Shown piece after piece: positions 12,833 to 59,476 of a stretch of 64,000 nucleotides of DNA (its first letter is position 1; each line of letters opens with the position of its first letter). The notes beneath the pieces are model-generated. The model had not been told where the DNA came from. It ran no database searches and saw nothing but the letters and a program-made list of their open reading frames with translations. The stretch is from assembly GCF_000170755.1 (NCBI RefSeq), contig NZ_ABCK01000013.1:1-64000 (forward strand), read 5' to 3'. A program made the translations under genes and the position numbers. The DNA comes from Lentisphaera araneosa HTCC2155 (GTDB taxonomy: Bacteria; Verrucomicrobiota; Lentisphaeria; Lentisphaerales; Lentisphaeraceae).

Positions 12833-14989
12833 TTAGTGAACGCGTTTTATTTTATTGACGTAGTAGTAATAGTCGCCTTGCATATCATTCCATTTAACGG
12901 GTAAGCTTGAACCCTGGCGCTTGAGCCAAGGATCATCAGTCGTGCCAATGTTGAGGAACTGTGATTTAGTGATAGGACGAATGCCGATTTCTGAAGCAGG
13001 AGAGTTCTCTGCAAAAGAAAGTTCTCCCGCTGGAAGATCTATAAATTGCGGATCTGCCATGAGGCTACGGCTATCCTGGCCTTTGAGATGCACTTTATCT
13101 AAGAAATTATCGGCCTGTTTGTTATGATTAGAATAATAAATATTATCATTGAGCATCGGGCCCATCATAAAAGTTTTGTAATGAAAATCATTGATGTTTC
13201 CCGTCGAGTAGAAAACATTCTTGCGAAAGCTCGATGAGTACTCCGCTCTATTTCCGGCCATGCCTGTGGTAAAACGCGTATTGAAGAAAAAGTTATTCTC
13301 GAAAGTGTTCTGCCCCTTCATACACAGGCCATCTTTTCCTGTTGTGCCCAATAAAATATTGAAGCTCAATAAAGAATAATGTGAGTCATCATCCGTCCGA
13401 ATCATCGAACCCTTGGGGTGATTATAAACTAAATTATAGCGAACTAAATTATCATTACCATGAGCAGATAAGTAAATGCCATTGCCATCGTGCAAGCGCT
13501 TCATGCAATCGTGAACTTCATTGAACTCAATAATATTATGTCGAGCATGCATGTAGGGCTCGTAGGCTTTCCAATCTAAAGGATCTTTGATATATTTGAT
13601 CTCATCCCAGCGAATAGAAGGCAAGTGTTCCCTTGTGCCCTTTGGGAACTGCCAAAACTTAAAGGGGTTTTTATCAGCTCGTTGATCTTTGGGGAATTTT
13701 TGAGAGAAAAAACGACGTCTAACGCCAGCGACAATAATGCCGCTATAACCTTGATCGTAAATATGATTCTTGGCAATCAAGTTATGACCACTCTGCCAAA
13801 CAAAGATGCCTGGCGAATGCCAGTAGAGTGAGCCAATTTCGCTTAAGCTATTATTGATAATGGTATTGTGGTGATTGACGTCTTTCTTTCCTGGGCCATA
13901 CCCCGCTAAAAGTATGGCGGTACCACCGAGTTTACTAAAACGATTATTGGCGATTGTAATATTTTGGCAATAAAGATCGAGTCGAACTCCATCACTCGCA
14001 GAATTGATGAAATTGCAATTGTGGACTTCGCAATCTTGGGCACCCCGAAAACGAATGAGTCCATTAGCTTTATCCCACATGTTCCAGTCGTGCTGAAGAC
14101 CAATATCATTTTTAGTCCAGCGTTGACGATCGGCGTGACTAAAGCTGAGGTTTTCAAAAATAAAATTCTTTGCAGGTCGTTCCCCTTTTCCTTCTAAACT
14201 CGAATCAGTTTTTCCTTCAATGCGAATGAGTTCATTGAGGTAGGGTGCAAAAATATCTTTGACTTGATCATCTTTTGGCCAGTAGTAGAGAGTGCCGTTG
14301 TTCAAACACCATTCGCCAGCCTCATCGAGATGTTGCAGGGAGTTTTCTATCTGCCATTCACCACTCATGATATAGGTCGCAGGGATCTTGAGTTTCGTTT
14401 TTTTGGCACCCACACGCTCAAGGGGTAAATAGTTTACCAACCATTTACGAGTTGGTTGACCAAAGAGCTCGATATCTTTAATATTCTCTAGCTTAGCTAT
14501 TTCGGGGTGCGTATTGAACTCGAAACGACTCTGCATATCGTTACAATAGAATTTACTGGGAGCCTCATTACTGAGTTCAATGATTTCTGAGCTCGCTCGT
14601 TTTAACATTTGATTTCCCTTGAAAAGCGCATGGAAATAATGCTCTCCTTCAGCCCAAGGAACTGGCGCGGACCAGATTTTGCCATTCATTAGTTCAGTTC
14701 GAGTCCAGCCTTCAATTTTGCGAGCTCCGCTAATAGTTGCTGATTCACCTGTTGCAGAACGAATAAGCGTTTTGGCATCAGAGCCACGCTCATCAAAAAT
14801 CAAACTTTGATTTAGGTGATGAGTGCCTTCGTGGATGATAATCTCAATAGTGTCTTGATAATTGTTTTGTCGAAGTTCTTGCCACTCTTTATGGGCAGAA
14901 CTGAGGTTGTTCTGATCTTTGTAGACGTGTATTTGCTTGGCATTTGCTAAGGAACTCAAGCAAATGACGAGAAGTAAAAATTTTTTCAT
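12833..14989 (-). CDS. Secreted right-handed parallel beta-helix protein
   Basis: 718 residues with a signal peptide (MKKFLLLVICLSSLANA). Many beta-helix coils follow, with repeated short N-rich turns (NCNFINSASDG, ITIANNRFSKLGGTA, HNTIINNSLSEIG). The fold is that of pectate-lyase-like and other polysaccharide-active enzymes; the substrate is unknown. I chose ATG at 14989 rather than 15016: the longer form overlaps the upstream gene and pushes the signal peptide inward. It is last of a three-gene set with 15003-17438 and the GH29 fucosidase. Confidence 0.86.
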   Translation of the reverse strand: MKKFLLLVICLSSLANAKQIHVYKDQNNLSSAHKEWQELRQNNYQDTIEIIIHEGTHHLNQSLIFDERGSDAKTLIRSATGESATISGARKIEGWTRTELMNGKIWSAPVPWAEGEHYFHALFKGNQMLKRASSEIIELSNEAPSKFYCNDMQSRFEFNTHPEIAKLENIKDIELFGQPTRKWLVNYLPLERVGAKKTKLKIPATYIMSGEWQIENSLQHLDEAGEWCLNNGTLYYWPKDDQVKDIFAPYLNELIRIEGKTDSSLEGKGERPAKNFIFENLSFSHADRQRWTKNDIGLQHDWNMWDKANGLIRFRGAQDCEVHNCNFINSASDGVRLDLYCQNITIANNRFSKLGGTAILLAGYGPGKKDVNHHNTIINNSLSEIGSLYWHSPGIFVWQSGHNLIAKNHIYDQGYSGIIVAGVRRRFFSQKFPKDQRADKNPFKFWQFPKGTREHLPSIRWDEIKYIKDPLDWKAYEPYMHARHNIIEFNEVHDCMKRLHDGNGIYLSAHGNDNLVRYNLVYNHPKGSMIRTDDDSHYSLLSFNILLGTTGKDGLCMKGQNTFENNFFFNTRFTTGMAGNRAEYSSSFRKNVFYSTGNINDFHYKTFMMGPMLNDNIYYSNHNKQADNFLDKVHLKGQDSRSLMADPQFIDLPAGELSFAENSPASEIGIRPITKSQFLNIGTTDDPWLKRQGSSLPVKWNDMQGDYYYYVNKIKRVH

Positions 14990-37339: not shown

Positions 37340-37406
37340 ACCTAACGTCTGAGTTGAGGGATTTCTGAGCGAAGCGAAGAAATTCCTCTCCAGCGCCTGG
37401 TTGAAC
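37340..37406 (-). other. attC 20, type 4
   Basis: ACCTAAC ... GTTGAAC, arms AGGGATTTCT / AAATTCCTCT with GCGAAGC. It abuts the left end of the IS91-type unit. Confidence 0.85.
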
Positions 37407-37541
37407 GAAGCCGCCCTGCGGCAGGCTGTGCTTGTGTAAGTCATTTTCTCCTCTTGTCAAAACTTTCCTCGGTGCCTTTTAATTTGTAGTTTGGTCTTCT
37501 TTTACGGTAGTTTTTCTCTGTAGCTTATCAAGGACACAGTT

Positions 37542-38459
37542 TTGTGTTCTGGCTTAATTAAACGGAGAAAAATGATGAATGATTCATTCCAAAAATATTA
37601 TAGAGCGATGCAATTGGAGCTTAAGCTCCAAGCTAAGGCAAAGAGTACAGTGGACAACTACTTGCGAGCTTTGCGTCGCGTCAATGATTTGATTGCTTCG
37701 CCTCTTGATCAACTTAAAGAAGAGGAGCTCAAGCTCTACTTTTCTGAATTGGTGGATACTTATTCCTGGAGCACGGTGAAGATGGATCGCTGTGCCCTAA
37801 GTTTTTTTTATCAATACGTGCTCAAGCGCGAGTGGAAATGGCTCGAAATTGTTCGTATCCCCCGAGTAAAATCCTTACCCGATATCCTCAGCCAAGATGA
37901 AACTTTACTGATTTTGTCTCATTTGGAAAAAGCTCGCTATCGAACTTGTCTCACAGCAATTTATTCCATGGGTCTACGCATCAGCGAGGGTGTGAGAATT
38001 CAAACAGGCGACATTTGCAAGGATCGCATGCGTTTACATGTGCGCAATTCCAAGGGCTACAAAGACCGTCTCGTTCCCTTGCCCCAAGTGACTTACCAGA
38101 TGCTAAGGGATTACTGGGTGATGCACCGCAATCCGCTACTGCTATTTCCGCGTTATGCCGGGAAAAGTCGTAGCAATTCCAAAACGACTTTGCACATGGA
38201 TAAGGGCGGGGTGCAGTCGGCCTTTAAAGCGGCTTTGGCTGATAGTGGCCTCGCCAAACAGGTGTCGGTGCATTCCCTGCGTCATTCCTATGCAACACAT
38301 TTGGTGGAAGCGGGAGTGAACTTGCGAGTAATTCAAGAAATCCTCGGTCATAGTTCTCCGGCAACCACGGCGATTTACTCTCATTTATCAAAACCCGTGA
38401 TACAGGACTCCGATGGCATGATCAACAAATTGATGCAGCGCCTAGGAGCTCTGCGATGA
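37542..38459 (+). CDS. Tyrosine recombinase of IS91-type unit
   Basis: 305 residues. N-terminal SAM-like core-binding domain; catalytic R in YSMGLRISEGVRI, HSLRHSYATHLVEAG, LGHSSPATTAIYSH with the nucleophilic Tyr. It lacks the IntI-specific insert, so it is not an integron integrase. The start may be ATG at 37572 (GGAGAAAA upstream). It overlaps the transposase start by ATGA. Confidence 0.88.
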   Translation: MCSGLIKRRKMMNDSFQKYYRAMQLELKLQAKAKSTVDNYLRALRRVNDLIASPLDQLKEEELKLYFSELVDTYSWSTVKMDRCALSFFYQYVLKREWKWLEIVRIPRVKSLPDILSQDETLLILSHLEKARYRTCLTAIYSMGLRISEGVRIQTGDICKDRMRLHVRNSKGYKDRLVPLPQVTYQMLRDYWVMHRNPLLLFPRYAGKSRSNSKTTLHMDKGGVQSAFKAALADSGLAKQVSVHSLRHSYATHLVEAGVNLRVIQEILGHSSPATTAIYSHLSKPVIQDSDGMINKLMQRLGALR

Positions 38460-39544
38460 TGGATTTAGTCGAGCTCAGCGAAAGATATTGGGACGAGCTG
38501 AGTTCGACACTTGATCAGGATCAGAGACGCGCTTTTAAGGCTATGATGAATTGCCGTCAGCAGAGTGCAGGTGGATCTTACTATGCCTGCACGAGTTGTG
38601 GACATGTTCATTATCACTGCCGATCTTGCGGAAACCGCTTCTGCAGCCGTTGCCAAAACCATCGGGCGAGCCAGTGGCTTCATCGACAAAAACAGCGTCT
38701 CTTGCCATGTCCTTACTTCATGGTGACCTTTACTCTGTCGAGCTCTTTGCGTGCCATTCCAAGATGGCGACGAAAAGAGATGTTTGATGCCTTGTTCATG
38801 GCCTCAAGTCAAGCTCTCAAAGAAATGTGTAAAGATCGTCTTGGTGGTGAATGTGGCATGATTGGCGTTCTGCATACCCATGGGCGAGACTTGTGCTATC
38901 ATCCTCATATTCACTACATCGTTCCCGGGCTCGTACTCAATAGTCAGGAAAAGCTCTTACGAGTGATCAAGAAAAATTATCTCGTCAACAATAAAGCTTT
39001 AGGCGCATTGTATCGTGGTAAATTTCTCGCAGCCTTAACTGAGCACAAAATTGGCTTCCAATCCTCGCTTTATGCAAAAAAGTGGAATGTGGATTGCCGA
39101 AGTGTAGGCCAAGGGCTTCATGCCCTCGAATACCTTAGTCGCTACCTCATGCGAGGTGTAGTTTCAGAGCAATCCTTGTCCGAAAAAGAGGATAAAGTTC
39201 GACTGCGGTATAAGGATTCGCAGACCAAGCGGATGGACTCCAAAGATTTTGGACCCGTGGAGTTTTTACAGCGCCTCGCTCAGCACGTCTTGCCAAGGGG
39301 CTTCCATCGCGTGCGGGAATACGGTTTTCTCGCTCCTGCAGCCAAGAAAAAACTCTTTCTTATGCAGAACTTACTGGAAGTCAAAATTCCCAATGATCCT
39401 CCGCCAAAATTACCTGCGCTACGCTGCAGTCTTTGTCAGGGCATTATGCTGCCCATTGGCCGAGTCATTAGTGAAGGACGTCTCAAGCAAGAATCTTTAG
39501 TGTCAGTAGGGGCACGCTCGCCGCCTATAGTTTCAATCTCCTAA
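38456..39544 (+). CDS. IS91-family rolling-circle transposase
   Basis: 362 residues. The N-terminal zinc-ribbon is CTSCGHVHYHCRSCGNRFCSRCQ, the HUH motif is CYHPHIHYIV, and the tyrosine motif is ALEYLSRYLMRG. HUH transposases nick one strand and move by rolling circle. Translationally coupled to the recombinase gene. Confidence 0.92.
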   Translation: MMDLVELSERYWDELSSTLDQDQRRAFKAMMNCRQQSAGGSYYACTSCGHVHYHCRSCGNRFCSRCQNHRASQWLHRQKQRLLPCPYFMVTFTLSSSLRAIPRWRRKEMFDALFMASSQALKEMCKDRLGGECGMIGVLHTHGRDLCYHPHIHYIVPGLVLNSQEKLLRVIKKNYLVNNKALGALYRGKFLAALTEHKIGFQSSLYAKKWNVDCRSVGQGLHALEYLSRYLMRGVVSEQSLSEKEDKVRLRYKDSQTKRMDSKDFGPVEFLQRLAQHVLPRGFHRVREYGFLAPAAKKKLFLMQNLLEVKIPNDPPPKLPALRCSLCQGIMLPIGRVISEGRLKQESLVSVGARSPPIVSIS

Positions 39545-39804
39545 GTTTATTCATTAATTTTTTCAGTACAAAACTTTGGGTCATAGATCCCCTATGCCCA
39601 AATTTGAGGAATTTCAGTATAAATGCCCTTCAAAAAATCTTTCGATTGCGATTAATCCTAGGAAAAGACTCGACCTTCACAAAAGTAGTGAGTCCATCTA
39701 GTCAAACAGGCGTATCCATTGCCTTTTTTGGGGCAAAATTGACCCCTTCATCTCCCTCAGGCTAAAAAGCTAAATACATAGGGGGGGGTCCGAGCATGGG
39801 GCTC
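39545..39804. other. Non-coding 3' part of the IS91-type unit
   Basis: No gene. It contains a run of nine G and the terminal hairpin at about 39791-39805. Probably the element's right end, where its replication origin would lie. Confidence 0.5.
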
Positions 39805-39880
39805 GTCCAACCATTGATTAAGATTCCGGCTACTTTGGGTTCCATTTAATATCAGCGAAATCTAATCTTATTCGTTAGAG
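39805..39880 (-). other. attC 21, atypical
   Basis: GTCCAAC ... GTTAGAG with ATTAAGATT / AATCTAATCTT arms. It is less regular than its neighbours and starts right at the IS91-type end. Confidence 0.6.
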
Positions 39881-40210
39881 TTTTCTTCTATATTCAGTTC
39901 GATTTTTAAAATATGTAAACTTCCACTCTTCATTTTCTATTTGTATGAAGGAGGAAACATAAGGTGCAAAATAATATCCATATTCATATTGTTTATCTCT
40001 TTTTGTGACAACACATATGTTGGTTGAGTGATTATAGATTTCAATAGATGGGATTTTATATAAAAGATTATCTGGGTTTTCTAGATAGAAATTGTTTACA
40101 GCACTTTGTATTTGTTCTGATGAATACGTATCAAAGAAAGATTGCTCATGGTTACTTTTGCATGCCGTTAAGATGATAAATATTATGAGTGTTATTATTG
40201 TTGTTTTCAT
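39875..40210 (-). CDS. Small lipoprotein, cassette gene
   Basis: 111 residues with a lipobox (IILTAC at residue 17). The remaining part is short and Tyr-rich. Unknown. Confidence 0.65.
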   Translation of the reverse strand: MKTTIITLIIFIILTACKSNHEQSFFDTYSSEQIQSAVNNFYLENPDNLLYKIPSIEIYNHSTNICVVTKRDKQYEYGYYFAPYVSSFIQIENEEWKFTYFKNRTEYRRKL

Positions 40211-52610: not shown

Positions 52611-53108
52611 CTACCCAATAATTGTTTTTATTATTTTAGTTTTAGAATTAAACCTTTTAGTTATCGATTCCATTGTTTCTTCAAGGTTTAAAAAACTTTC
52701 TTTAGATCCAATTATATATCTCTTATTTTCTGTGTTAGAAATTATTAATGTGGGATAAATATTGATATGGTTTTTACGATAATGATTGAGATTTATGATA
52801 TAAACTAGATTGGGTTTACCAATTAGTTGAGGTTTTATCAAATGATGAAAATATGATTGTTTATAAAGATTATTTTCTTTTTCAATTATCCTGAAAGGTA
52901 GAACTGCATATGATAAGCTAAAATAAGAAATACCTAAGGGAATGAGTGACCATATAAACAAAAAAGTTAACAAACCTAGATGAAACTCTTCAATGTTTTC
53001 TTCAGACAGAATTTTCAAAGGTATGAATAAAAAAAGTAGAGCAATTATAGAAAAAAATAAATATCCTATTCTTAATTTCTTCTTTCTTAATATTTTAATT
53101 TCATTCAT
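52611..53108 (-). CDS. Two-helix membrane protein with PH-like domain, cassette gene
   Basis: 165 residues; TM at about 14-33 and 45-70, then a beta-rich domain with YIIGSKESFLNLEETMESITKRF. Layout as in other PH-like two-TM cassette proteins. Unknown. Confidence 0.66.
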   Translation of the reverse strand: MNEIKILRKKKLRIGYLFFSIIALLFLFIPLKILSEENIEEFHLGLLTFLFIWSLIPLGISYFSLSYAVLPFRIIEKENNLYKQSYFHHLIKPQLIGKPNLVYIINLNHYRKNHINIYPTLIISNTENKRYIIGSKESFLNLEETMESITKRFNSKTKIIKTIIG

Positions 53109-53120
53109 TTATTATTGATC

Positions 53121-53201
53121 ACCTAACGTCTGAACTGAGTAGTACTTTCTATTTAAAATTTGACTCCAAACGAAAGTATCTACTCCAGTGATTTGTTAGA
53201 T
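53121..53201 (-). other. attC 50, type 2
   Basis: ACCTAAC ... GTTAGAT. Belongs to cassette A6. Confidence 0.88.
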
Positions 53202-53413
53202 CTTTTCTCTTTTATTGTTGATAATTAGACTTTTATTTTTTTTCATTTGCTGATTCCGCATATACTTGGAATCGTATTTGATGCACAATTTGCGTTCACT
53301 TTTGGTGAATTGCTGACTTCGCATTTACTCAGCTTAATTCTGTGATTCCAAGAATAAAGTGAGTCGCTAAGTAGATGACGTAATAAGATAAAATATATTT
53401 AAAATTTATTCTG
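53202..53413 (-). repeat. Repeated ORF-poor cassette body, family A copy 6
   Basis: 212 bp, same as the bodies at 32439 and 34586. The 42-codon frame is 53196-53324. Confidence 0.88.
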
Positions 53414-53504
53414 ATCTAACGCTGAGGATGAGCTGTGATCTTAGTACGGATCGGAGTGATGAGTTTCGCGTAGCGAAACCATCAGTTCGATCCGTTGGTT
53501 ATGA
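53414..53504 (-). other. attC 51, type 6 variant
   Basis: ATCTAAC ... GTTATGA, inner GTTTCGCGTAGCGAAAC hairpin and GAGGATGAGCTG / CAGTTCGATCC arms. Confidence 0.8.
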
Positions 53505-55071: not shown

Positions 55072-55138
55072 GACTAACGTTCGAGTTGAGCTGTGTTCGA
55101 GCCTAAGCGAGAACCTCAGTTCCAACGATTTGTTGTAC
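55072..55138 (-). other. attC 55 (proximal to intI), type 8
   Basis: GACTAAC ... GTTGTAC, GAGCCTAAGCGAGAACC hairpin. The attC nearest to intI that I can find. Confidence 0.82.
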
Positions 55139-55394
55139 TTTATTTCAATTATTGATGATCCCATATTTCCTTTCCCTATGGTGCTAAACTAACTGTTTTT
55201 GTTTTGTTGAACAAGTTAATATGGGTGTAGTTGATGCTGTGATCAGGTGCTTTTTACTGTCTAGGCGGGCTTCGAAACTATGTGGCTCTAAATTTTCATC
55301 TATTAGAGGCTTCATTACCTTATAAAGAGCTCTTTTTATCGACTTCGGCATCAAGTACTTCTTGTCAGGGATTGTTGACTCTCTGATTCGTTTC

Positions 55395-56564
55395 TTATGC
55401 ATGTAACCTTCTCCCCTGATAGTGAAAGAGTATTGGAGGAGGTCTCTCATTCTGGATATCCTGGCCGCGTTTAAAATCACTGTAGCCACAGCAATCACAG
55501 ACTTTGGGTTGCCAAGCATCTTCTTTGAATCGTTCGCTACCGGTGAATTCTTTGAGTAGTTCAGCAAAGAGTATCTTACAGTATTCCTTACTTGTGGTTC
55601 GTTGAGCTCCTGCAAAAAGGCCATAAAACCTTGATCTTCGAAATCCTTTGGGTAGTACATGCTGCATAAATCTTCTGATGAATTCCTGAGGTTTCATTCT
55701 GATATCTTTATGTCGAGGAATTCCTTTCTCGTCCAAATCTTTATAATCTTTGATATCAAAACTTATGAATGAATTTTCAACTGCTGTAATTCTACCATTA
55801 GCGATGGCACTTCGATAAACATAACGACTCAAGTATTCGACAACAACTTCAGCACCTGAAAAGGGTTTTTGAATATTCACGACCCAGGGTTTCTCTTCGA
55901 TGATTTTATATATTTCAGGGAAGCCTTGCGCATTCACTAACTTCTTATGTTTGTTGAGATTTTTGAGTTTTCGGAGAAACCTTTTTTTGAATTCTTCTGA
56001 GGCTTCAAAAACGTCAAATAAGTAGTCGTTTCTTCCAGCTTTCCATGTCCCATCTTTTTTCATTCCCCCACTTGTGACCAGAATATGTACATGAGGGTGG
56101 AGACATAAATCTTGACCCCAAGTATGAAGTGTGGCGATAATTGCGGGAGTCGCATCATGATATTTTTGACTCAGATAAAGCAGTGTGTCTGCGGCAGTTC
56201 TGAAGAGTAAGTTATAAATCTCTCTTTGGTTAAATCTTGCTATCGGGTTCAGATCATGAGGCAGGGTGAAAATACTATGGAAATAAGATACGGGTAATAA
56301 TTCATCTAATCGGTCTTTTAACCATCTTCTTCGGCGTATACCCTGACACATTGGACAGTTGGTGTTTCCGCATGAATTATAGACTGGCCGTTCATTTCCG
56401 CATTTACAGCATATTTCCTTATGTCCTCCAAGGTAGGCAGTTCGGCACATAGCTATATCTTGTAATGTTTTTCGTTGCTCTTTTTGCAATCCGTGTGTGG
56501 CTTCGTAAGCTTGACCAAATCGTCGAAAAACCTCTCCTACACTATGCTCTGTCCTTTGTTTCAT
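55395..56564 (-). CDS. IS91-family rolling-circle transposase (second type)
   Basis: 389 residues. Zinc ribbon CCKCGNERPVYNSCGNTNCPMCQG, HUH motif LCLHPHVHILVTSGG, tyrosine motif VEYLSRYVYRS. It lies in array orientation between attC 55 and intI, so it is either an insertion beside attI or the first cassette. It differs from the 38456 transposase and has no recombinase gene attached. A TACCT...AGGTA inverted repeat sits just upstream (about 56571-56586) and could be an operator. Confidence 0.92.
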   Translation of the reverse strand: MKQRTEHSVGEVFRRFGQAYEATHGLQKEQRKTLQDIAMCRTAYLGGHKEICCKCGNERPVYNSCGNTNCPMCQGIRRRRWLKDRLDELLPVSYFHSIFTLPHDLNPIARFNQREIYNLLFRTAADTLLYLSQKYHDATPAIIATLHTWGQDLCLHPHVHILVTSGGMKKDGTWKAGRNDYLFDVFEASEEFKKRFLRKLKNLNKHKKLVNAQGFPEIYKIIEEKPWVVNIQKPFSGAEVVVEYLSRYVYRSAIANGRITAVENSFISFDIKDYKDLDEKGIPRHKDIRMKPQEFIRRFMQHVLPKGFRRSRFYGLFAGAQRTTSKEYCKILFAELLKEFTGSERFKEDAWQPKVCDCCGYSDFKRGQDIQNERPPPILFHYQGRRLHA

Positions 56565-56795
56565 ACCTTTTACCTACCTTATTTAGGTAAATAATACATG
56601 TGAGCTTAGCTTACAATTCTTAGTATGTTTTTTTAATTGTTTTTTAGTACAACATGGTTTTATGAGCCTGTCGTTTTTTTCTGAAGGCTCGTGTTTTTGT
56701 GAAGTTTCATTGTTGTTAAATGTAGGGGTGGTTTAACTATTATAAACTTAAAACCTACTTTTTTATTTGTTGTGAGTATTTGTTATTGCTGTTAA

Positions 56796-56819
56796 TAATG
56801 TCGTAAATCAGGGGTTATG
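56796..56819 (+). repeat. Direct repeat upstream of intI, copy 1
   Basis: TAATGTCGTAAATCAGGGG plus TTATG. Repeated exactly 100 bp away, with further weaker similarity (GAATAA...CGGTA/CCGTT, ATTATTTA, GATCAA/GTCAA) over about 70 bp. It could be integrase accessory sites of attI or the left end of the IS91-type element. Confidence 0.8.
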
Positions 56820-56895
56820 TGACAGGTGAATAACTCGGTAGTTTTATTATTTAGAGTCAATATTTCAAGTTTTATTACTTTTTTGTAATGTCATA

Positions 56896-56919
56896 TAATG
56901 TCGTAAATCAGGGGTTATG
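56896..56919 (+). repeat. Direct repeat upstream of intI, copy 2
   Basis: Same 24 bp as 56796-56819, ending 124 bp before the intI start. Confidence 0.8.
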
Positions 56920-57043
56920 CATGTCATGAATAATACCGTTATTCGGGTATTATTTAATAATTAGGATCAAATTAAAGCTAGTAAATACTTGTGCTTATTG
57001 AGTTTTAGTTATTTAGTTCTTTAACGGAAAGCAAGAGGAATGA

Positions 57044-58321
57044 ATGATGTCTAATATGCAAGTTTTCAAGGTGTTTTTACTTAATCAAAAAGGTGTCTAT
57101 GAAAAGAACGTGGAGTATTATCTCAAGCGAGTCGTTCAGTATGGTATGTTCTGTAGAAGAAATGGTAGTGAACCTTATGATAAGGTGAGCCTAGATGCTT
57201 ATTTACGGAGTTTGTTTGGGCGTGCTGAAGAGTGGCAAATTCAACAAGCGGAAGAAGCGGTGAAGTTTTATTGGTATTGGCGCTCGGAAGGAAAATCTGA
57301 ATTAAATGTTTGGCAAAGTGATGAAGAAATTCGTGTAGAGAAGCTTTCAGTAGCTTTTGATGTAGAAAAAGTAGAGTATTTAAAAAAGTTTGAGGGAGCT
57401 TTGCGACTCCAGCAAAAATCTTTAAGAACGATAAGATCATATGTTTCTTGGGCGGAACGTTACTTGGCACATAGTGATAATAAATGTCAAGAAACAGAAA
57501 AAGTACGAGATTTCCTATCTTATTTAGCGCTGAGACATAATGTTGCGGCATCGACTCAGAATCAGGCCTTATGTGCTTTGGTGTCATTATTTAAATGTGT
57601 TTTCCAAAAGGACTTAGGGGATATTAGTGGAAGTTTACGCTCAAAAAAGAGTGAGCGCTTACCCGTCGTATTAGATGTTGAAGAAGTGAGGTCTTTGATT
57701 GATGTGACTCTCGGGCAGGAAAAATTAATGATGAAATTGATTTATGGAGGCGGATTAAGAAAAAATGAATGTCTGCGTTTAAGGATAAAAGATTTGGACT
57801 TCAAAAGGGGAGCACTGAACATACGAGCAGGTAAGGGGGATAAAGATCGACAAACTTTGTTAAGCCCAAAGTTAGAGGGTGAAGTTAACGCTCATATATG
57901 TGAAATAAAAAAACTTTATGATAAAGATCGAACTGAAGGGGTTGAAGGGGTTTACTTACCGAATGCCCTAGTGAGAAAATATCCATCAGCGAGTAAGGAC
58001 TGGAACTGGTTTTGGTTGTTCCCGTCACCAGCATTGAGTATCGACCCCATGTGTAAAGTAAAAACTATTAGAAGACATCATTTATCTGGAACGGGATTGA
58101 GTCGTGTATTAAAAGAAAAATGTAAAGAAGTTGGAATTAAGAAACGGTGTACGGTGCATACTTTGAGGCATAGTTTTGCGACGCATTTGTTGGAGCGGGG
58201 AACTGACTTGCGGACGATCCAGGAATTGTTGGGGCATGAAGATATAAGTACGACGCAGATTTATACCCATGTGCTGAGTTTGAACCAATCGGGGACACGC
58301 AGCCCTTTGGATGATTTGTAG
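57044..58321 (+). CDS. intI: Integron integrase IntI with N-terminal extension
   Basis: 425 residues. Catalytic residues of tyrosine recombinases: R239 (YGGGLRKNE), H372 and R375 (HTLRHSF), H398 (LGHEDIS), Y407 (QIYTHV). The IntI-only insert is present at about 300-348 ([26 protein letters not shown]), which separates it from XerC/D. It recombines attI with attC and attC with attC. About 90 extra residues at the N-terminus (usual IntI about 320-340) look like an additional helical SAM-like domain. Transcribed away from the array. AAGAGGA precedes tandem ATG codons. Confidence 0.96.
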
Positions 58322-58798
58322 TTGAGGAATTAGGAATCAGGAATTAAAAATTAAAAATTAAAAGACAGGCAGGCTCCGCATCAAAAGTGGCCAAAGCACT
58401 TTTGTGTAAAAGGGGGATACTGTAATGTGTGAGTGACTCCTACCTCCAAGTAAATATCAATTACCTAATAGAATGTGACTTTGCGAACTTCGCAAAAGCA
58501 ATGGAGTGCTGAGGACTAAGAAAAGATACAAGTTTCAAAGTGTTTAGTGCAAGGACTGCAGGATGGTATTCGTTTGCTGCTGTGTTATTTCGATTAGGGA
58601 TATCTTTCGCTTGACAGCGGGTTGCGGCTGCCACCGCGGGCGGAAAAGGGTGAGGAAGTTTTTTCTAGAGTTGATGCCGAGCAGGGGCTCAGCGGTACGC
58701 TTGTGACGATAGGAGAATAGAAGGGAGATTATAATAAACATTTAGGTCCACGTGAACTACTGGCTCAAAAGATTGCTTTTGATCGCTATTTTAAAGCT
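58322..58798. other. Intergenic region after intI
   Basis: Short tandem AATTAAAA motifs just after intI (about 58344-58362). The end near 58725-58800 looks like a decayed reading frame on the + strand, but I recognise no family. No attC. Confidence 0.4.
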
Positions 58799-59476
58799 TT
58801 AAAACAAGTCGACTTGAAAGCCCATGGGGTTTTGACTGGGTTCCATGAGGGACGGGAAGTTATTGTCGGGCTTGCCAACTTCGGGGGTGACTTGGTGATA
58901 ATCGAGTTTGTGAACTGATCGGCCAATATAATCCTCTCGTTCAATGGAGCCTCGCAGCCAAGAGTCGGCATTATCCAATGAATAGATTAGTGGCATGCGA
59001 TGATGAATGAATTCAATACGTCGATCGGCAGGGCGGGTAATGATGGCAAAGGTTTCGATCTCTGAGCCATTGGCAAGGAGTATGGTGTTCCAAATTCCGG
59101 CCATAAGTAATAATTGATCGGGCTGATATAAATAAAAGGGAACCTTGTTTTTATCCTGAGTTAACCATTCGTAATAGCCACTCGCAGGAATGAGGCAGGG
59201 CTGACGTTTTAGGTAGGATTTAAAAGCGGCTTTTTCGTGTAGGGTTTCCACACGAGCATTGATGTAGCCGGGGATCTCTTGAGATTCCCAAGGAGGGATG
59301 AGTCCCCAACGTTTTGCGTTCAGTTGCCAATTATAATCATCACTAGTCATAACTGGAAGCCAGCTACCTGGACAGGCATTATAAACTGGCCCTGCAGGAT
59401 TTGGTCTCTCCCACATGGCTTGGAGTTCTTCTTCCAGCTGAGCAGCAGAAGCAGCTACGGCAAAACGACCACACAT
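58799..59476 (-). CDS. SRAP (SOS response-associated peptidase) protein, YedK/HMCES type
   Basis: 225 residues. MCGRFA exposes the catalytic Cys2 after Met removal. INARVETL, LIPASGYYEW (catalytic Glu) and EFIHHRMPLI (His) are the family's other signature blocks. SRAP proteins crosslink to abasic sites in single-stranded DNA and protect them. It is convergent with intI. Because integron recombination passes through folded single-stranded attC, this neighbour is interesting, but it may be chance. Confidence 0.94.
   Translation of the reverse strand: MCGRFAVAASAAQLEEELQAMWERPNPAGPVYNACPGSWLPVMTSDDYNWQLNAKRWGLIPPWESQEIPGYINARVETLHEKAAFKSYLKRQPCLIPASGYYEWLTQDKNKVPFYLYQPDQLLLMAGIWNTILLANGSEIETFAIITRPADRRIEFIHHRMPLIYSLDNADSWLRGSIEREDYIGRSVHKLDYHQVTPEVGKPDNNFPSLMEPSQNPMGFQVDLF

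Follow-up and report, generated by a model that had tools for sequence, protein, structure and literature searches.

The two identical 25-bp direct repeats that lie between the integrase gene and the first gene cassette of an integron in Lentisphaera araneosa HTCC2155 are, to judge from sequence comparison, probably accessory elements of the attI region, most likely additional sites at which the integrase binds double-stranded DNA. The direct basis for this reading is the position of the attI|cassette junction, the conservation of both the repeats and their spacing, their independence from a neighboring IS91-type transposase gene, their persistence beside an attI site that has no intI, and the platform-specific sequences of the corresponding elements elsewhere. 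From these observations we infer that the units may bind the integrase, help synapsis, and take part in autoregulation.

The DNA analysed, hereafter the window, comprises 64,000 nucleotides (positions 1 to 64,000 of contig NZ_ABCK01000013.1), and its relevant features are collected in Table 1. The repeat, ATAATGTCGTAAATCAGGGGTTATG, is exact in its two copies, which are spaced 100 bp apart, and when the sequence 56654-57043 was shuffled 1000 times with its dinucleotides preserved, no exact repeat was longer than 14. An earlier note on this DNA had described an exact repeat of 24 bp at this spacing, with weaker similarity beyond it. The repeat and its spacing stand, with the length extended to 25 bp; the further similarity is marginal on the 3′ side, where the flanks of both units have TGAATAA and TATTATTTA in common (a score reached by 75 of 1000 shuffle pairs), but is at the level of chance on the 5′ side, where 553 of 1000 shuffle pairs reach the observed score. 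When up to three mismatches are allowed, the 25-mer has only these two occurrences in its own 6.02-Mb, 81-contig genome.

Table 1. Features of the window and of related platforms (positions refer to the window unless a contig is named; distances are from unit start to crossover).
Feature	Position	Strand	Remarks
Attachment site (attC) of transposase cassette	55075..55138	-	outer arm GTACAAC, complementary to cassette start GTTGTAC
First gene cassette, IS91-family transposase gene	55078..56652	-	ORF 55395-56564
attI|cassette crossover	56652..56653	-	G (56653) | TT (56652-56651); from congener alignment and cassette ends
attI core flank GACAGGCTCATAAAACCATG	56653..56672	-	alignable with G001a
GTTAAAC/GTTTAAC string	56731..56737	-	not the junction
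Proximal 25-bp unit	56795..56819	-	minus strand CATAACCCCTGATTTACGACATTAT; start 167 bp from crossover
Distal 25-bp unit	56895..56919	-	identical to proximal unit; start 267 bp from crossover
Palindromic arm pair AATAATACC-GTTATTCG-GGTATTATT	56929..56954		adjoins distal unit; 21/26 bases kept in congener
intI, 425 aa	57044..58321	+	TIGR02249, E 4.9e-109; N-terminus (residues ~1-88) forms a second SAM-like domain
Unit distances, window			167/267 bp
Unit distances, G001a			167/267 bp
Unit distances, G002 orphan			168/278 bp
Unit distances, G001b			168/280 bp, plus extra unit at 315
Unit distances, C33 and C25			179/291 bp each; near-identical copies
Tandem integrase locus	G000:C10:162584-165241		
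Tandem integrase locus	G000:C47:7615-10089		
Tandem integrase locus	G001:C1:1889559-1892034		

The attI junction and the adjoining transposase cassette

The attI interval sits between intI, on the 5′ side of that gene, and the first cassette. A congener, G001, carries an orthologous platform with an integrase 88% identical to that of the window and a different first cassette; between AACATGG (56651 onward) and intI the two platforms can be aligned, with 78% identity, and outside this stretch they cannot. Because the congener homology stops exactly at this point, and the cassette ends agree with it, the crossover is placed at 56653|56652. In two comparisons, the window with G001a and C33 with C25, the same platform DNA meets different first cassettes at a single point, and the junctions elsewhere read alike (G002, C33, C25, C10, C47 and its G001 counterpart, G001b, C21, and the G002 orphan sites). 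Each of the 12 junctions that were read by eye has G|TT, and three of them (G001a, C33, and the G002 orphan) have the strict GTTRRRY, the window having GTTGTAC; contig C26 ends 6 bp short of its crossover. The GTTAAAC string that had been put forward as a candidate core is present where it was reported, but it lies about 80 bp from the junction, and both the cassette boundaries and the end of the G001 homology rule it out as the core. An inverted sequence, GAGCCT...AGGCTC at 56664-56692, adjoins the crossover of the window and is kept just partly in the congener.

An IS91-type transposase gene had been recognized between the repeats and the next attC, correctly so (NF033538, E 4.6e-111), and two readings of the repeats had been offered, as direct repeats of attI or as the terminus of one or two insertions of IS91 type by which attI may have been displaced. 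There are four further near-identical copies of the transposase in the same genome, five in all, and their alignment defines a common unit, about 1.58 kb in length, which begins with GTTGTAC, ends with an attC (...CGAACGTT), and is followed by a different sequence in each case; identity among four of the copies is 100% over 1578-1580 bp, and the fifth (L005) carries an indel of 1 bp. Upstream of the five copies lies an attC in three cases, the attI of the window in one, and another attI, on contig C10, in one. G001 has six copies of an orthologous transposase cassette with 83% DNA identity and the same ends (L163-L168). In both genomes these cassettes start at G|TT, end in an attC at G|TT, and have unrelated cassettes adjoining.

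By its sequence limits the window transposase is therefore a cassette gene and not an intruding insertion, because its ends are exact cassette ends and the outer arm of its attC is complementary to its start. Since all five copies are bounded as cassettes, attI has not been displaced. That the repeats might be the end of an IS91-type element, for which the proximity of the transposase gene speaks, now has a negligible probability: comparison of the copies, the check that the earlier note had proposed, finds the repeat beside none of the four others, the copies stop exactly at cassette boundaries, and the repeat is present in G001, whose attI has no such gene adjoining. The alternative that the note had offered, that of attI direct repeats, is supported in a modified form, as G001 has the repeat next to intI with no transposase gene there, and another congener, G002, has a related pair next to an intI-less attI. 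Transposase genes within gene cassettes have been reported before (PMC1382264, PMC12444791) and resemble the present case in that a transposase ORF is contained in one attC-bounded cassette; here, the gene is of the IS91 family and is found in five copies in one genome, with six orthologous copies in a congener. Elsewhere in the window, at about 37401-39890, there is a multi-copy element of about 2.5 kb (L006, L007, L009, and L011) that has a tyrosine recombinase together with another transposase of IS91 type, which shares 33% identity with the one described above.

Conservation and sequence diversity of the units

Between the window and G001 the bases of the units are identical at 49 of 50 positions, and those of the remaining interval at 242 of 337 (Fisher p 6e-6), and the units of G001 keep the 100-bp spacing. 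Among 59 relatives, the 25-mer (up to three mismatches) is found only in three members of the genus, at two places in each: beside intI in G000 and G001, and in G002 beside one attI that lacks intI, the two G002 places being on near-identical contigs, so that the second may be an assembly duplicate. The G002 matches are not at the intI of that genome but at a junction of attI with a cassette (C1:2717800) where no intI could be detected; one unit of this orphan site matches at 23 of 25 positions and the second is visibly diverged (AATAATATCCGAATAACGACATTAT). Three platforms in G002 have attI and cassettes and no intI (L070 on C1, L169 on C2, and L170 on C3), and are possibly served in trans.

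The distance from the crossover to the start of the nearer unit is 167-179 bp in six related platforms, among them the near-identical pair C33 and C25 (Table 1), and steps of about 11 bp among the unit-crossover distances hint at helical phasing. The distances from the units to the start of intI, 124-134 and 224-246 bp, are almost as constant, and geometry alone therefore cannot tell a role in attI from a role in a promoter.

The units of other platforms have other sequences, also within one genome. In a second platform type, represented by C26, by C25 and C33 as decayed copies of it, and by G001b, the units have the form CATAACNCC...CGACTTAT; in C25 and C33 only the last ~50 codons of intI are left. 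Both of these decayed loci (G000:C25 ~13380-13860 and G000:C33 ~53010-53490) retain attI and the units, and a short match to TATGCCTC is found at the point of deletion. A third type (C21 and C10b) has palindromes around GGACATGTCC that are 143-144 bp apart; C21 has two copies of a perfect palindrome and a third that extends over the crossover, and two intI-less attI sites of this type in G002, distinct from the orphan site described above, keep the core and one of the two palindromes. With up to two mismatches, the unit motifs are confined to integron platforms, apart from one two-mismatch match in G001 and one remnant at C5. Another sequence, CACTTTTGATGCGGAGCCTG, is dispersed, with one copy at 58370-58389 of the window and 26 other places in three genomes, repeatedly beside integrase genes or inside attI intervals.

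The binding of integrase to the units is suggested by their similarity to the core in three of 11 intervals. When the crossover-proximal 34 nt were compared with the rest of each interval against 200 shuffles, the score was reached by none of the shuffles in G001a, G001b, and C21. The remaining eight intervals fell short of significance: 12 of 200 shuffles reached the score in the window, where the best match is an A-rich stretch outside the units, and the counts were 25 in C33, 16 in C25, 177 in C10b, 69 in C47a, 23 in G001d, 153 in G002, and 30 in the G002 orphan. With a core of 26 nt, G001a alone of nine intervals was significant. A permutation of own core against own spacer, in which the segments were picked by hand, gave 5/720.

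If the units are accessory sites, they would load integrase near the core, as DR1 and DR2 do at attI1, and integrase so loaded would help the synapse of attI and attC; since the units lie upstream of intI, integrase bound to them may also repress its own promoter. Several points weigh against the accessory-site reading, namely the failure of the 34-nt test in eight of 11 intervals, that of the window included, the retention of no more than one of two palindromes on the intI-less third-type (type C) platforms of G002, the restriction of strong repeats to 17 of the 98 intI upstream regions surveyed (see below), and the nearly constant distances to intI, which would suit a promoter role.

The main rival reading holds that the units are operators for a host regulator, of the LexA, CRP, or other type, at the promoter of intI and/or the cassettes, with no role in recombination. 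Their location upstream of intI at a nearly constant distance from its start, and their dyad form, which is common in operators, are compatible with this, as is the overlap of the integrase and cassette promoters of Vibrio cholerae, which have a CRP site in common within the corresponding interval (PMC3948777). It is, however, weakened to an unlikely explanation, chiefly by the platform-specific sequences of the units, which differ among platforms of one genome and which one host regulator would not explain; moreover, the 25-mer has no other genomic site at up to three mismatches, a related pair persists at an attI that has no intI, and in three platforms the flank of the crossover is matched by the units. 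A promoter scan gave one sigma-70-like match, a smaller number than the shuffles gave on average.

It is less likely still that the units are functionless relics of old attI duplications, that is, copies of the part adjacent to the core. The similarity between core and units in G001a, G001b, and C21 would fit such an origin, as would the marginal similarity past the 25 bp on one side, but relics would hardly account for units conserved at 49 of 50 positions amid an interval conserved at 242 of 337, nor for the conserved spacing, and the units of the window lack G|TT.

The integrase and its second N-terminal domain

The integrase of the window carries an N-terminal stretch of about 90 residues that hhalign relates to the SAM-like core-binding domain as a homologue (probability 96, P 3.8e-9) and that is predicted to form four helices (mean pLDDT 81). 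The best solved structural neighbor of the intI model is the integron integrase of V. cholerae (2a3v), with 320 of 425 positions aligned, and structures of lambda integrase are among its neighbors as well. The extension, encoded at 57044-57310 in the window, is also carried by the integrases of the congeners and is frequent among those of the class; a few integrases on contigs labelled Nitrospira, Eisenbacteria, and Thermodesulfovibrionales (L074, L075, L076, and L083) have it as well. A scan of named genomes with intI as the sole query found no relative, and a literature search for an N-terminal extension of integron integrases in connection with attI found nothing.

The extension was considered as the binder of the repeats and set aside, as its presence does not predict them. 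Across 98 intI upstream regions, 29 of them belonging to extended and 69 to non-extended integrases, no association was found (Mann-Whitney p 0.32); the regions were drawn from 116 ORFs after those shorter than 250 aa and starts with less than 260 nt of upstream DNA had been dropped, and two genes, one on C10 and one on C47, are counted twice through overlapping loci. Upstream repeats with z above 3 were found at six extended loci, five of which are of this genus, and at 11 non-extended loci. The duplicated SAM-like domain is therefore not relied on here as the binder of the units. Near intI, at 58799-59476 on the minus strand, the window encodes a protein starting MCGRF, which we take to be a peptidase of the YedK/SOS-response-associated type.

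Relation to known attachment sites

Attachment sites of the attI kind have, to our knowledge, been dissected mainly in mobile integrons and in Vibrio. In lambda attP, remote repeated arm-type sites flank the core, and lambda integrase has an additional N-terminal domain. The present system shares both features, but its additional domain is a further copy of the SAM-like four-helix type, a homologue of the core-binding domain, and across integrases the repeats do not go together with it. L. araneosa is among the taxa included in the integron trees of PMC3108266. In attI1 of class 1 integrons, DR1 and DR2 are described as supplementary integrase-binding sites that favor attI1 x attC recombination (PMC8946536), and the site totals about 65 bp (PMC4792948). 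The attI of the window resembles attI1 in being double-stranded, in its extra repeats on the intI side, in its G|TT crossover, and in having intI on one side and cassettes on the other. It differs in that the repeats are 25 bp long, identical, and start beyond the extent of a ~65-bp site, and in that the DR sequences are described binding sites whereas integrase binding is here proposed by inference. The attIA of the V. cholerae superintegron is likewise the attI of a chromosomal integron but is stated to be without such repeats (PMC8946536), and remote repeats of this type are not described in those parts of the integron literature that were surveyed.

A broader and rather doubtful extension of the accessory-site reading is that attI in this genus is a composite site of about 170-290 bp, in which integrase would loop together the core and remote platform-specific units, privately for each integrase. 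Such a site would consist of the core and two or more units at fixed distances, would be longer in other platform types, and would hold a looped integrase complex reminiscent of that at phage attP. On each platform the integrase would recognize the units of that platform, with the duplicated SAM-like domain as a possible reader, and private attI sites could allow several integrons to coexist in a cell, with the intI-less platforms served in trans.

Comparison alone has sufficed to locate, with single-base precision, the attI of an integron in a distant phylum, and to tell it apart from a transposase cassette that could pass for an insertion; it also indicates remote accessory elements of platform-specific sequence. 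If the integrase does bind the units, attI in these bacteria would be a larger, multi-site complex than attI1, and a single genome with several integron types offers a ready test of the co-evolution of integrase and attI specificity. At three loci (Table 1), two different integron integrase genes stand in tandem, in the same orientation, before one attI.
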